Source: an uncultured Bacteroidota bacterium (GTDB lineage: Bacteria; Bacteroidota; Bacteroidia; AKYH767-A; JABDAW01). Taken from it: DNA of 35,214 nucleotides. The notes beneath the pieces are model-generated. The model did no database searches. It saw only the letters and a program-made list of their open reading frames with translations, and was not told the origin of the DNA. Of the stretch, positions 4,181-35,176 are shown piece after piece. The translations under genes and the position numbers were made by a program. Where the stretch lies: positions 1-35,214 of the forward strand of contig CAIWCG010000047.1 in the NCBI GenBank assembly GCA_903911135.1, given 5' to 3'. The first letter of the stretch is position 1; every line of letters begins with the position of its first letter.

Positions 4181-4345
4181 TTCGAGGCAACCTGCCGTCA
4201 AAACCTAGCCCCGATAGTAGCGGCAGCCCGCTGCCTTGTTTCGGAAATGGGGATGCAGCGGCTACAGCGGATAGCGGGACGTGGATGGGAGGAGAAGAGG
4301 ATATAGGCTCCTTATATGAGTTATGAATTATAAGTTATGAGTTAT
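4181..4345 (+). repeat. Dispersed intergenic element, copy 1
   Basis: The stretch 4181-4316 matches, in reverse complement, 35042-35176 at the other end of the window. Shared blocks include ttcgaNgcaacctgccgtc, tagccccgatagtagcggc, agcggatagcgggacgt and gaagaggatataggctcc. It continues into an A/T-rich tail (ttatgaattataa) also found next to copy 2. It is rich in short inverted segments (ggcagcccgctgcc, gcagcggcta), so an RNA could fold. It contains no reading frame. From memory, similar 'tagccc-gat-agcgg' elements are scattered through Bacteroidota genomes; that is recollection, not a search. Confidence 0.8.
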
Positions 4346-8423: not shown

Positions 8424-8999
8424 TGTATTTAATGGAAACGACTTTTCAATGGGTCCTTTTTTCTTTTGAGTCTTATAAAAGATTTAAAAGAGAAATTGGC
8501 AATTAAAAAAATCAGGCTTGGCAAACTTGGAAGAAAGGGCCTTCATTTTTCATTTATATTGAGCAGTCTTTTGGTCAAAAGGGTTGAAATTTCAATTAAG
8601 GCACCATCCTGAAGCGGCGGATGCCTAAATCATTTGATTTTGTCTATCGTCTGTAGCGGCGGGTGCCTAAATTGAATGATTAAGCCTATCGCCTGCAGCG
8701 GCGGATGCCTAAATTGAACGATTAAGCCTATCGCCTGCAGCGGCGGATGCCTAAATTGAACGATTAAGCCTATCGTCTGTAGCGGCGGGTGCCTAAATTG
8801 AACGATTAAGCCTATCGTCTGTAGCGGCGGGTGCCTAAATTGAAATTTTAAGTCTATCGCTTGAAGCGACGGGTGCCTTAATTGAATTTTTAGCTTATAA
8901 AGACAAAAAACTTAGGCAAAAAATCATTAAATCAACAACCCAAAATGGCTGATTGAACTCGATAAAAGCTATTTTTAAGAATAAAAAACCTTGAAAACC
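8424..8999. other. Convergent intergenic region holding array A
   Basis: Apart from the 42-bp array no gene is seen. The flanks (8424-8590 and 8897-8999) are A/T-rich and hold no clear terminator hairpin, although two genes end here from opposite directions. Confidence 0.5.
8591..8896. repeat. Tandem array A: 42-bp unit, seven copies, with one inverted unit end
   Basis: Units start at 8611, 8653, 8695, 8737, 8779, 8821 and 8863, each opening with a form of g-agcggcgg-tgcctaaatt and closing with a form of cctatcgtct. The middle five are nearly identical; the first and last are degenerate. To the left, ttcaattaaggcacc (8591-8605) is the exact reverse complement of ggtgccttaattgaa (8872-8886) in the last unit, so the array is bracketed by an inverted unit fragment. 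It lies between two convergent genes and has no long reading frame. Confidence 0.95.
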
Positions 9000-14579: not shown

Positions 14580-14978
14580 TCAGGGAAGTCTATTAATCAA
14601 TCAGGGAGGTCTATGTATCCTTCAAGGTGGTCTATTAATCGTTCAGGGAAGTCTATTAATCATTCAGGGAAGTCTATGTATCGTTCAGGGTAGTCAATTT
14701 ATCCTTCAGGGAGGTCTATGTATCGTTCAGGGTGGTCTATGTATCGTTCAGGGAGGTCTATGTATCGTTCAGGGAAGTCTATTAATCGTTCAGGGAGGTC
14801 TATGTATCGTTCAGGGTGGTCTATGTATACTTCAGGGTGGTCTATGTATACTTCAGGGTGGTCTATGTATCGTTCAGGGTAGTCAATTTATCCTTCAGGG
14901 ATGTCTATTAATCGTTCAGGGTAGTCGGGAATCCGTTCAGGGAGTTCGGGGAAGCGTTCAGGGAAGTCGGAAATGCGC
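14580..14978. repeat. Tandem array B: 21-bp unit, 19 copies
   Basis: Units start every 21 bases from 14580 to 14958 without a single length change. Consensus: tcagggNNgtctatgtatcgt, with two main variants (tctatgtat and tctattaat) and rarer ones (tagtcaattta). The last three units (14916 on) are degenerate and the pattern fades at about 15020. No unit-spacer alternation, so it is not CRISPR. The reading frames that cross it are interrupted. Confidence 0.97.
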
Positions 14979-15123
14979 TCACGATGCCCGAGGAACTGTT
15001 ACGGGTGTTTTGGAAAGCGGTGAAGATGTGAAAGAATGAACACAAATGATAAGTGATTGGATAATGGGAAGCATGGGATGGTAATTAAGTAATCAGGATT
15101 GCATGAGCGGCATAAGATATTGA
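14979..15123. other. Spacer between arrays B and C
   Basis: Degenerate continuation of array B to about 15020, then about 100 bases of unique sequence with no gene or promoter seen. Confidence 0.4.
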
Positions 15124-15478
15124 CGATTTGGTGTTGAATATTGCCCTTGCGGTGTTAAGGATTGCGCTCGGTGGCTCAGGAAAAACGCTCGGTGGAGTAA
15201 AATATGCGCTCGGTGGAGTAAAAAAACGCTTGGTGTATCATGAAAAACGCTTGCGGCATCAAGAAAAACGCTCGGTGGAGTAAAATATGCGCTCGGTGGA
15301 TTAATAAAAACGCTTGGTGCATCAGGGAAATCGCTTGCGGCATCAAGAAAAACGCTCGGTGGAGTAAAATATGCGCTCGGTGGATTAATAAAAACGCTTG
15401 GTGCATCAAGGAAATCGCTTGCGGCATCAAGAAAAACGCTTGCGGTATCTAGGTTTGCGGTCGATATATTCGTGATTA
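15124..15478. repeat. Tandem array C: 21-bp unit, about 17 copies, with an 84-bp higher-order repeat
   Basis: Unit starts: 15124, 15144, 15165, 15186, 15207, 15227, 15248, 15269 and then every 21 bases to 15458; two units are 20 bp. Units alternate among cgctcggtggagtaaaatatg, cgctcggtggattaataaaa, cgcttggtgcatcaaggaaat and cgcttgcggcatcaagaaaaa forms. A block of four units (15269-15352) is repeated almost exactly at 15353-15436, so the array grew by an 84-bp step. Open frames of 70-84 codons on both strands here are a by-product of the multiple-of-three unit. Confidence 0.95.
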
Positions 15479-15957
15479 TTGATTAAGCAGCTGATTTACA
15501 GCATAATAACGTAATATGAGTTATGAAGTATGGAAGCCACAGAGGGGCTATATATTGGTAGGGTGGGAAAGAATTATGAATTATAAATTATTTTGGGAAA
15601 GGTTGTTTTTTATAATCTTTTCTTTAAACAAAAGAATCCCAAGAAATCTTTTTGCTAAATAATTAGGTGTATCTGGAGGTATTTCACGCAAAGGGCGCAG
15701 ACGGTTTCGCAAAGGCACTTGCTAAACGATGGGCGGAAGTACTGCTTTCTTGGCCTGTACAAAGCTGTTTTATTTCTTAACGCAAAAATATTTAGGTGCA
15801 TCGGGAGGAGGGAACGGGGTATTTGGGGTGGTTTTATGTAAAGTTCATTTTGAGTGACACCTATTTTCCTTCAAATCAGGAAGTGTAACTGATTGATATA
15901 CTGCCACTTATGGAGCCGTTTAAAAGTTTAATTGAGGGCAAATGTAATGTGCAGTTT
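15479..15957. other. Gene-free stretch
   Basis: No reading frame worth calling. It contains an A/T-rich part (gaattatgaattataaatt, near 15570) like the tail of the dispersed element at 4.3 kb, and a 'cacgcaaagggcgcagacgg' string near 15690 of a kind that recurs between genes in Bacteroidota. Nothing functional is evident. Confidence 0.4.
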
Positions 15958-16230
15958 CCTACTGGTAATGACGCATTACCAGGACTTCTTTACACAAAAC
16001 CAGTAGGTAATGACGCAATTCCGTTAGTTATGGACGCAATGCCAATAGATAAGGAGTGATGGCGTAAGCATCGTGTGTGATTGCCAATCGTTCTTCACCA
16101 AATAACTATTGGTTTCTGCCGGATTCCAGGAGAAAAACACGCAAAGCCGAACGAAAAATACGCAAGGCAAGGTGGAAGTTACCCAATACCAATAGGTTAT
16201 TACCCATTACCAGACGATAATGACACAGGG
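15958..16230. repeat. Tandem array F: decayed 21-bp array, 13 units in phase
   Basis: At first sight only scattered copies of ggtaatgacgca- and acccattacc-like strings are visible, but cutting every 21 bases from 15958 places cc at the unit start in 10 of 13 units and C in 12 of 13. The clearest units are those at 15958, 16000, 16021, 16126, 16147, 16189 and 16210. The first contains a perfect 9-bp hairpin (ctggtaatg / cattaccag, 15962-15982). Units at 16042-16125 have largely lost their sequence while keeping length, so this looks like an old array. Confidence 0.75.
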
Positions 16231-16284
16231 CGCAGAGGGAAAGTGTACAAGGAACAAGGAAAATGTATAGTATGATGACATCCA

Positions 16285-16366: not shown

Positions 16367-16442
16367 ATAAATCCTTTACTCTTGGGACGAGATTAAAAAA
16401 TCTCGACCAGCGTATTTGGAACATCCCGACCAGCGGGCAATT
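16367..16442 (+). repeat. Palindromic repeat element, longer copy
   Basis: Contains three palindromic cores: ggattataaatcc, cgagattaaaaaatctcg (16388-16405) and two gaccagcg boxes. Its second half, aaaatctcgaccagcgt followed by attNggaacatccNgaccagcggg, recurs with a few mismatches at 16984-17028 inside the HEPN gene. Similar GGATT-AATCC palindromes are remembered as scattered elements in Bacteroidota; this is not verified by search. Confidence 0.7.
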
Positions 16443-16457
16443 GATAATTAAATTTAC

Positions 16458-16465
16458 TATTTTTG
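16458..16465 (+). promoter_or_regulatory. TAnnTTTG -7 box before MNT gene 1
   Basis: TATTTTTG followed by C, 18 nt before the ATG at 16484. No well-spaced -33 element is seen. Confidence 0.5.
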
Positions 16466-16483
16466 CAGTCAAATAACAATAAA

Positions 16484-16795
16484 ATGAATCAAATAATTCA
16501 AGACCGTTTACACGATATAAATTTGTTGTGCAGCAATCACAAGGTAAAGGAGTTATATGCTTTTGGTTCTGTTTGTACCGATAATTTCAATGCCCAAAGC
16601 GATATAGACTTATTGATTTCATTTGAAAATATCTCCATCGAGGAATATACCGAAAATTATTTCTTGCTGCACCACCTTTTTGAGGAGCTATTAAAACGTC
16701 CCATAGATTTGGTTACCGAGCGTTCCTTGTCGAACCCCTATTTTATAGAAAGCGTGAACAAGACCAAAACATTGATATATGGACCTCGAAATTAA
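16484..16795 (+). CDS. MNT-type nucleotidyltransferase antitoxin, module 1
   Basis: Encodes 103 aa from the ATG at 16484; the frame is open from a TTG at 16463, but that codon lies inside the -7 box. The minimal nucleotidyltransferase signature is present: FGSVCTDNF then QSDIDLLISF, with the GS loop and the DxD metal pair, and a later Asp in RPIDLV. In MNT/HEPN toxin-antitoxin systems the MNT protein neutralises the HEPN RNase, in studied cases by adding AMP to a tyrosine near its active site. It overlaps the following HEPN gene by 17 nt, as usual for these pairs. The partner is broken here, so this antitoxin may have no toxin to control. Confidence 0.88.
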   Translation: MNQIIQDRLHDINLLCSNHKVKELYAFGSVCTDNFNAQSDIDLLISFENISIEEYTENYFLLHHLFEELLKRPIDLVTERSLSNPYFIESVNKTKTLIYGPRN

Positions 16796-17045
16796 AAAAT
16801 GTCTTTACGACATTCAGGTTTCGATAAATTCCATTTATGAATATTTAGGGGACAAAAGGGATTTCAATCATTATTTAGAGAACAAGCAATTGAGAAGGGC
16901 AGTGGAAAGAGAATTGGAAATAATTGGAGAAGCCACCGACAGGATTCTCAAGATTGATTCCGAGATAGCCTTGGATAATGCCAGAAAAATCTCGACCAGC
17001 GTGATTGGAACATCCAGACCAGCGGGTAATTATAAGTACGGATGA
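16779..17045 (+). pseudogene. HEPN-domain toxin, truncated by a repeat element
   Basis: 88 codons remain. Residues 1-70 follow the HEPN family well (MDLEIKKCLYDIQVSINSI, RRAVERELEIIGEA) and align with the intact protein at 22387-22725. Where that protein reads IIGTRNRIAHGYD, with the Rx4-6H RNase motif, this one reads ISTSVIGTSRPAGNYKYG and stops. The divergent segment (16984-17028) matches the palindromic repeat at 16393-16442, so a repeat insertion or recombination between copies has removed the catalytic motif and the last ~35 residues. The product should be inactive as an RNase, though it might still bind the MNT protein. Confidence 0.75.
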
Positions 17046-21137: not shown

Positions 21138-21244
21138 ATTTGCTTTTTTTAGCTGATTTTGGGCTAAAAAGGGTCTAAATATGCGTTTTCCCAAAATCGT
21201 GTTTTGTAAGTTGTTGATAATCAGGCTGGTATAAAATCGAAGTA

Positions 21245-21475
21245 TTTACTCACCTGATGAGCAGATTTACTCACCTGATGGACAGATTTACTCACCTGAT
21301 GAGCAGATTTACTCACCTGATGGACAGATTTACTCACCTGATAAGCAGATTTACTCACCTGATAAGCAGATTTACTCACCTGATGGACAGATTTACTCAC
21401 CCGATGGACAGATTTACTCACCTGATAGACAGATTTACTGACCTGATGAGCAGATTCGTTGAGGGGGAGAGCAGA
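21245..21475. repeat. Tandem array D: 21-bp unit, 11 copies
   Basis: Units start every 21 bases from 21245 to 21455; consensus tttactcacctgatgNNcaga, where NN is gag, gga or aag in context. The last unit is degenerate and the pattern is lost after 21476. Units with tgag contain a small palindrome, ctcacctgatgag. It stands about 110 bases after the TerY-P terminator. Reading frames through it are repeat artefacts. Confidence 0.97.
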
Positions 21476-21588
21476 TTCGGGATTTGGGTCGGGAAGGCTG
21501 GGTTTTTCATCGTCGTGTGACTGCGACTTTTTTGGAGCAGCAACACGACGATGATTAGTATTATTGATATACTATTTATTATGACCAA

Positions 21589-22094: not shown

Positions 22095-22397
22095 ATGAAC
22101 ATCGTGGAAAACAACATAGAGCGGATTAAGGAATTGTGTGAGCAATACAAGGTTAGCAAGTTGTTTGTTTTCGGTTCGGTTGTTACTGATAGGTTTGGCA
22201 GCAATAGTGATATTGATTTGGTGGTTGATTTCAGGGAAGTTGATTTATATGATTATGCTGACAATTATTTTGGCTTTAAGTTTTCGTTGGAGAAGGTCTT
22301 TCATCGTGATGTTGATTTGCTGGAGGAGCAAGCCATCCGAAATCCTTATCTGCGCCAATCCATTGACTCCACAAAGCAGTTGATTTATGGACATTGA
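22095..22397 (+). CDS. MNT-type nucleotidyltransferase antitoxin, module 2
   Basis: Encodes 100 aa. The nucleotidyltransferase signature FGSVVTDRF then NSDIDLVVDF (GS loop and DxD) is intact, as is the later Asp (HRDVDLL). It is homologous to the MNT protein at 16484-16795 (both end NPY-x-SV/I-x-TK-LIYG). It overlaps the HEPN gene by 11 nt. The expected role is to block the partner HEPN RNase by nucleotidylation or tight binding. The start is fixed by the -7 box 5 nt upstream, which leaves no room for a ribosome-binding site. Confidence 0.9.
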   Translation: MNIVENNIERIKELCEQYKVSKLFVFGSVVTDRFGSNSDIDLVVDFREVDLYDYADNYFGFKFSLEKVFHRDVDLLEEQAIRNPYLRQSIDSTKQLIYGH

Positions 22398-22725
22398 AAT
22401 AAAAACCTGGCTTTATGATATTCTTCAATCCATAAATGAGATTGAGAGTTATTACGCAGATATTCCGAAACGTTTTGATGAGTATAAAGCGGACACGAAA
22501 ACGAAACGGGCAGTGGAAAGAAATATCGAAATCATCGGTGAGGCAGTTTATAGAATCAGGAATAAGGATGCTGATTTCAAGATACCTAATTCGGAACAAA
22601 TAATAGGCACCAGAAACAGGATTGCTCATGGGTATGATAAAGTATCTGATGAAGTGATGTGGAGTATCGTGATTAATCATTTGCCCAAACTTCAAGAAGA
22701 AATTGAAAGGATGCTTGGAGAATAA
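22387..22725 (+). CDS. HEPN-domain RNase toxin, module 2 (intact)
   Basis: Encodes 112 aa, all-helical, of the HEPN toxin family (formerly DUF86). The RNase motif Rx4-6H is present in GTRNRIAHGYD (Arg and His), with the conserved Tyr two residues after the His, which in studied systems is the residue modified by the MNT partner. The N-terminal half (WLYDILQSINEIESYY, KRAVERNIEIIGEA) matches the truncated HEPN at 16779. When released from its antitoxin it should cleave RNA and arrest growth. The module lies about 1 kb after the TerY-P operon, consistent with a defence or conflict island. Confidence 0.9.
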   Translation: MDIEIKTWLYDILQSINEIESYYADIPKRFDEYKADTKTKRAVERNIEIIGEAVYRIRNKDADFKIPNSEQIIGTRNRIAHGYDKVSDEVMWSIVINHLPKLQEEIERMLGE

Positions 22726-30307: not shown

Positions 30308-30411
30308 ATTTAACCCTTAGCTCCCTCGGCCTGTTTTTTATCAATTTATAAAGTAAATGATTGATAAATAGCTGTTTTTAATGTATTTAATGAGTTTTAG
30401 AGAGACTGTTG

Positions 30412-30621
30412 CGTCCGACGTAATGGTCATTACGTCCGATGTAATGCCCATTATGTCGGACATAATACCCTTTGAGTCGAACGTAATGGGCATTATCTCG
30501 GACGCTAAGGGTATTATTGTGACGACAATGACCTTTATTGCGACGACAATGACCTTTATTGTGGCTGCAATAACCTTTATTTTTGATGCTAAGCCCATTA
30601 TATTGGTCGCAAAGGGCTTTA
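30412..30621. repeat. Tandem array E: 21-bp unit, 10 copies, self-complementary
   Basis: Units start every 21 bases from 30412 to 30601. Forms range from cgtccgatgtaatgcccatta through ttgtgacgacaatgaccttta to tattggtcgcaaagggcttta; nearly all end in tta. cgtaatggtcattacg (30418-30433) is a perfect palindrome, and the unit at 30433 pairs with 30484-30504 with two mismatches, so single strands could fold into hairpins. More diverged than arrays B or D but without length changes. Confidence 0.9.
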
Positions 30622-30879
30622 TTTTTTGATGAAATGATCATAAAATGGGACTTATGATTTTCAAAATGATCAAACTTGGCTATCATTAATTTGCTTAATG
30701 ACCAATCAAGGCCAATAGGAAAAGGAAAGGCATGGAAACGGACAATTAATAAAAAAATGGCATTCATAAACTTTTTATGAAGGTGTAAAACAAGGAAAAT
30801 CAACCTAAAAATGATTAAAATCATACAAATTCTAAGCCTCATAAGGGGTATGGAAGGTTTATAATTCCAACAAAATATC

Positions 30880-35009: not shown

Positions 35010-35176
35010 TTTATAATTCATAATTCAACATTTATAATTTCTATAAGGAGCCTATATCCTCTTCTCGTATCATGTACGTCCCGCTATCCGCTATAGCCGC
35101 TGCCTTCCCATTACCGACACCAAGCAGCGGGCTGCCGCTACTATCGGGGCTAGATTTGACGGCAGGTTGCTTCGAA
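35010..35176 (-). repeat. Dispersed intergenic element, copy 2 (inverted)
   Basis: Reverse complement of copy 1 at 4181-4345. The core is 35042-35176; 35010-35041 is the A/T-rich tail (ttataattcataattcaac). The two cores are almost the same length (135 and 136 bp), with differences clustered in the middle (around ttggtgtcggtaatggg) and just after the agcgggacgt block. It lies just downstream of a terminator, as does copy 1. Confidence 0.85.

Follow-up and report, generated by a model that had tools for sequence, protein, structure and literature searches.

A degenerate 21-bp array in an uncultured Bacteroidota bacterium, possibly an old member of a genus-wide set of intergenic minisatellites with fixed unit length

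Array C (Table 1) may be an old and no longer homogenised member of a genus-wide set of intergenic minisatellites that combine a fixed unit length of 21 bp with a free unit sequence, a reading to which we give a probability of roughly 0.4. The array lies in a stretch of 35,214 nucleotides from an uncultured Bacteroidota bacterium, all of which was analysed here (the window). Substitutions are tolerated in arrays of this kind and length changes, those of 3 bp in frame included, are not; the results together suggest that spacing, not letters, is what is made or kept.

The first-pass annotation had described array C as a hidden, decayed 21-bp array, holding its phase through units that could no longer be recognised. 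The periodicity was borne out, with an identity at lag 21 of 0.512 vs 0.258 in dinucleotide shuffles (n = 1000; z = 9.0; 0 shuffles reached 0.512), and chance as the origin of the signal was ruled out at this z. Lag 42 gave z = 6.9 against dinucleotide shuffles, and with the same shuffles none of the lags 15-20 and 22-30 exceeded z = 2, leaving lag 21 as the only peak between 15 and 30 and well clear of the shuffled level. The dinucleotide CC stood at the unit start in 10 of the 13 units, exactly as had been reported. For the phase, the nine outer units were turned into a profile, which was scored on the four middle units at 21 phases; phase 0 yielded +4.6 log-odds and each of the other 20 phases -31 or less, and array C therefore keeps its phase through its middle, as claimed. 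To call these middle units unrecognisable was a slight overstatement, fitting those at 16063 (p = 0.12) and 16105 (p = 0.02), which are nearly so, but not those at 16042 (p = 0.0004) and 16084 (p < 0.0002), which were clearly recognisable. "Hidden" was a fair term, because Tandem Repeats Finder (TRF), run on the window at score 50, omitted array C from its output. Array C is a head-to-tail repeat with a unit within 10-60 bp, as expected of a minisatellite/VNTR.

Table 1. Repeat features of the window (positions counted from its first letter).
Feature	Position	Strand	Description	Basis
Degenerate array C	15958..16230	.	13 units x 21 bp, unit near CCAATAGGTAATGACGCAATA	lag-21 z = 9; phase test
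21-bp array A	14580..14981	.	unit TCAGGGAGGTCTATGTATCGT; at its end (14913-14981) shifted or with an indel	TRF
21-bp array B	15165..15440	.	unit CGCTCGGTGGATCAGGAAAAA; 42/84-bp higher-order repeat	TRF; paralogue on L090
21-bp array D	21244..21456	.	unit ATTTACTCACCTGATGAGCAG	TRF
21-bp array E	30412..30621	.	ten units by eye	TRF 30412-30495 and 30514-30581
42-bp array, two different 21-bp halves	8608..8886	.	between convergent genes	TRF
Duplicated segment, 462 bp	15770..16231	.	array C plus 188 bp outside the array	copy on contig C295, 15410-15871, reverse
Dispersed intergenic repeat family, part of	15591..15813	.	adjoins array C	query 15540-15960, 61 matches in own genome

The window belongs to a Bacteroidota MAG of 3.8 Mb (G000), and about 500 kb of stretches were sampled from this genome and two others of the same genus, G001 (CAIMUP01) and G002. 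The genus sample contained 84 arrays with a period of 21, 42, 63 or 84, roughly one per 5-8 kb. By period, the arrays of at least 84 bp numbered 52 at 21, 26 at 42, 5 at 63 and 1 at 84, and units between 16 and 26 bp were exactly 21 bp long in 51 of 54 cases. In the 318 kb sampled from G000, TRF assigned a period of 21, 42, 63 or 84 to 58 of 77 tandem arrays, and the other two genomes were alike; the G000 sample was partly picked for repeat matches, and its unbiased part held 12 arrays in 98 kb. Extrapolation from the sampled stretches would put the number of arrays per genome at several hundred. Long arrays are probably under-assembled, because 6 of the 34 contig ends carry an array.

The sequences of the units were mostly unrelated, with 67 of 82 being singletons and pairwise similarity equal to that of shuffled units, 8 pairs excepted. 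Circular motif alignment of the units gave an information content of 6.25 bits, compared with 5.82 +/- 0.08 bits in mononucleotide shuffles. A binding motif common to the arrays was rejected as a candidate, the alignment yielding a weak shared signal at most. Dyad symmetry and stems were enriched over dinucleotide-preserving controls (z = 4.8 for 21-bp and 8.5 for 42-bp units). Within array E, a core TAATGnnCATTA was retained in the first units and the rest of the unit was drifting.

TRF-based counts favour regular arrays; a scan of lags 15-27 around the 84 genus arrays is less exposed to such bias. Windows matching at lag 21 covered 13,691 bp with a mismatch rate of 13%, or about 1,800 mismatches, and lags 20 and 22 together covered 108 bp in five short segments. 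Coverage near the 84 arrays was zero at lags 15-19 and 23-27, including lags 18 and 24, which correspond to in-frame changes of 3 bp. The background rate in dispersed repeats would predict between tens and more than a hundred segments with indels. No net phase shift was seen in 74 of 82 arrays, and alignment of the arrays to their repeated consensus gave a gap:substitution ratio of ~0.02-0.06 depending on gap cost, a value inflated by paired artefact gaps. One comparison between loci came from two paralogous cassettes with shared flanks and 42-bp arrays (L080:3371-3897 and L085:14953-15480), whose alignment of 528 bp contained 114 substitutions and a single gap. Their units differed consistently over all five 42-bp units, with 9 of the 42 unit columns having no common state, and their flanks were about 88-92% identical. 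A copy of this cassette lacking the array was not found; other than as short fragments, the flanks are confined to these two loci. The two cassettes stand before apparently different genes, and in both the last unit has an inverted loop sequence.

It had also been claimed that array C itself gathered substitutions without indels and that this supports selection on spacing, and for array C alone neither part could be upheld. The sole paralogue of array C in its own genome lies within the C295 copy of the 462-bp segment, which is 91% identical with 0 gaps. Array C differed from this copy by 24 substitutions in 273 bp and the 188 bp of non-array flank by 17, both without a gap, so that divergence was 9% in each and array C is neither protected nor decaying faster than its surroundings. 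Decay specific to array C was rejected on this equality, and "decayed" holds only in part. Dispersed non-array intergenic repeats of the same genome showed 0.09-0.12 gaps per substitution, a rate at which about 2 gaps would be expected in array C; 0 were seen, which is not a significant shortfall, and 10 of 37 comparable pairs of dispersed repeats were gapless. Array C alone gives no support for selection on spacing, because its flank is equally gapless and so are these dispersed pairs. Pooled over the 84 genus arrays, the pattern of substitutions without indels is strong and fits a length lock, for which amplification in fixed 21-bp steps rivals selection as the cause. In front of korA there is another array in G001 and no array in G002, but the genes further upstream are not the same, which leaves the orthology of these sites doubtful; with a korA protein only ~81% identical, G001 and G002 are too distant to serve as strain-level relatives.

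The DNA helix has 10.5 bp per turn, and 21 bp thus make two turns. For the 21-bp lock we favour helical phasing, at somewhat under even odds, with any function of the arrays being putative. The lock may exist because no whole number of base pairs below 21 makes up whole turns (2 x 10.5), and a unit of any sequence would for this reason give coherent curvature, its small bends adding in phase to produce curved, superhelical DNA. Curved arrays could organise the nucleoid, absorb supercoils or serve a shape-sensing protein. Substitutions would leave the curvature of an array largely intact and indels would break it; arrays would grow and homogenise in whole units and, once this had stopped, as in array C, would drift by substitution yet stay in phase. 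In a wedge model of DNA bending, random units of 21 bp were predicted to be the most curved of periods 15-32, the end-to-end/contour ratio being 0.66 at 21, 0.91 at 20 and 0.84 at 22; with a single assumption, helical phasing would account for the importance of length and the unimportance of letters. In the same model, the curvature of the arrays exceeded the genome average, real arrays became straighter when their period was shifted, and the curvature of real units was slightly above that of their dinucleotide-shuffled versions (mean rank 0.415 +/- 0.031), a small excess. Against phasing stands the lack of excess conservation of array C over its flank. A period of 31/32 bp, which would span three turns and be roughly phased, was never seen, and a fixed ruler therefore fits better than phasing alone. 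The indel-free divergence of old arrays in turn favours selection.

Such a ruler is a close rival of helical phasing and a real possibility, although one that we would bet against. Amplification or repair in these lineages would duplicate DNA in 21-bp steps of any sequence, units of other lengths would be lost or not amplified as whole units turn over, and phase would be a by-product without function. Consistent with this are the arbitrary sequence of the units, the missing 31/32-bp periods, the presence of arrays in every kind of intergenic gap and their abundance in some lineages and near absence from others. Its difficulty is that diverged arrays, both array C and the L080/L085 pair, are still essentially without indels, which turnover alone would not explain after it had ceased, and we know of no activity that duplicates 21-bp DNA.

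Arrays outside ORFs of at least 100 aa lay in long intergenic gaps of convergent, divergent and tandem orientation, and they are not simply promoter elements, because gaps of every orientation, convergent ones included, carry them. This placement weighs against arrays of sequence-specific binding sites, such as adjoining head-to-tail operators or iterons that each take up 21 bp, as do the array-by-array differences in unit sequence and a shared motif too weak for one protein. The enrichment of dyads and stems speaks for such sites, 21 bp would fit a dimer site, and the L080/L085 arrays keep a 5-bp stem despite changes on both arms, but on balance we consider this explanation unlikely.

Slightly less probable again is that the arrays are the interior of a mobile element bounded by terminal inverted repeats, comparable to BrickBuilt of Porphyromonas gingivalis, a 23-nt intergenic minisatellite found within a MITE at 19 sites (PMC4596501). 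The location of array C inside a two-copy 462-bp segment would agree with this, as would the presence of some arrays in duplicated cassettes and one array region (L087 2042-2394) bounded by inverted Flavo-1 repeats. The arrays nevertheless have no flank in common, enclosing inverted repeats of at least 14 bp were present in only 4 of 77 arrays, and Flavo-1 is absent from the sample of the equally array-rich sister genome G001. Terminal inverted repeats were rejected as a general feature of the arrays on the same count. Flavo-1 RNA (RF01705) provided the only two Rfam hits of the window, at 4203-4285 (+) and 35073-35155 (-), both away from array C, which had no Rfam match itself. A further 20 copies were found in 283 kb of G000, where Flavo-1 is a dispersed repeat often lying at contig ends. 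Seven copies lie no more than about 250 bp from a 21-bp array, and every one of them faces away from that array. In G001 there were 0 copies in 147 kb, and Flavo-1 was rejected as a partner of the arrays, being often near them in G000 yet missing from this array-rich sample.

About half of the arrays, and of array bases, overlap mechanically called ORFs of at least 100 aa, most of which are probably spurious, since repeats of 21 bp keep the reading frame and leave it open when the unit has no stop. Variation between units was biased by codon position (p < 0.05) in 1 of 44 arrays, and substitutions between paralogous arrays showed no bias over the three positions (30/44/40, 9/15/17 and 24/24/18). 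Open frames numbered 3.0 per array vs 1.9 in column-permuted controls, an excess that we do not read as coding because stop triplets, at 0.081, were barely below the dinucleotide expectation of 0.089. That the arrays are or were protein-coding heptad repeats, with indels purged to keep the frame, is thus very improbable: 21 bp equal seven codons, open frames are in excess and ORFs run through several arrays of the window (15176-15430 minus, 21257-21520 plus, 30381-30629 plus), but codon bias is missing within and between arrays, in-frame changes of 3 bp are as absent as all others, and the array C frame with the clearest heptads contains stops in both copies. We accordingly disfavoured coding repeats as the identity of the arrays.

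Genomes rich in arrays and locked to 21 bp also occur elsewhere in Bacteroidota. In 2.0 Mb sampled from other members of the phylum, we found five arrays of at least 84 bp with a period of up to 60 outside long ORFs, of which 4 had a period of 21 or 42. In 96 kb of the MAG palsa_968 (G136), several sites had 21/42/63-bp arrays, and 100 kb of G023 contained 42/63/84-bp arrays besides some of 82 bp; few were seen in G137 and G138. Arrays were absent from the samples of G003-G004 and nearly absent from most of the class, which suggests that they have expanded repeatedly and are not a universal trait. One short array was present in the isolate Draconibacterium aestuarii (L121), and an assembly artefact is disfavoured because MAGs of different projects agree and an isolate carries an array, although copy numbers may be collapsed.

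Searches of the open-licence literature found nothing matching 21-bp intergenic arrays of Bacteroidetes, and three known systems resemble them in part. BrickBuilt, the nearest of these, likewise consists of spacer-free, intergenic, multi-copy repeats of about two helical turns in Bacteroidota, but has one 23-nt consensus, a common leader and tail and terminal inverted repeats (PMC4596501), whereas the arrays described here have a 21-bp unit that differs almost everywhere and no common ends. The TAACTGA heptamer arrays are also numerous, short and intergenic, some of them in Bacteroidota, but their unit is fixed at 7 bp and in the best-studied genome they lie mostly just upstream of start codons (PMC4679880). 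Intergenic tandem repeats of lake Planctomycetota are abundant in freshwater MAGs, as the arrays are here, but the part of that account consulted describes no fixed period and ascribes duplications and deletions to slippage (PMC9426551), whereas 21 and its multiples dominate in our sample.

Bacterial minisatellites are usually defined by sequence, and here the invariant is length. We tentatively propose, again without reaching even odds, a class of non-coding DNA in bacteria that maintains the repeat length of 21 bp alone, its sequence being irrelevant, with hundreds of unrelated intergenic arrays per genome in separate Bacteroidota lineages, produced by a dedicated 21-bp amplification or acting as sequence-agnostic curved elements of the nucleoid. 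Should selection maintain the arrays, they would offer a clear example in nature of selection that acts on the shape of DNA and not on its sequence, one that could readily be tested in this genus; should a ruler produce them, they would imply an unrecognised activity duplicating DNA in two-turn steps. Either way, scans for conservation based on sequence would miss the class, as array C illustrates.

Several minor features were noted beside the arrays. Between 17824 and 21028, the window has a run of three genes, for a von Willebrand A-like protein (by eye, with no Pfam hit), a weakly supported PP2C-like phosphatase and a protein kinase; a search of four relatives did not recover the first of these genes. 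A nucleotidyltransferase/HepT toxin-antitoxin-like pair lies at 16463-17045, its HepT part covering profile positions 3-47 of 120; the truncated HepT end contains a short repeat, ctcgaccagcg...gaccagcggg, also present near 16404-16440. A second, complete nucleotidyltransferase/HepT pair at 22095-22725 is likewise downstream of a 21-bp array, array D. In G001, an 18-bp inverted repeat (GCTCTGCATTCAGTCCCC) encloses a 21-bp array (L184:7108-7243), the unit of which itself forms the inner end of the inverted repeat, and G002 has a heptamer array of GAATAGT in 53 copies (L045:3578-3951).
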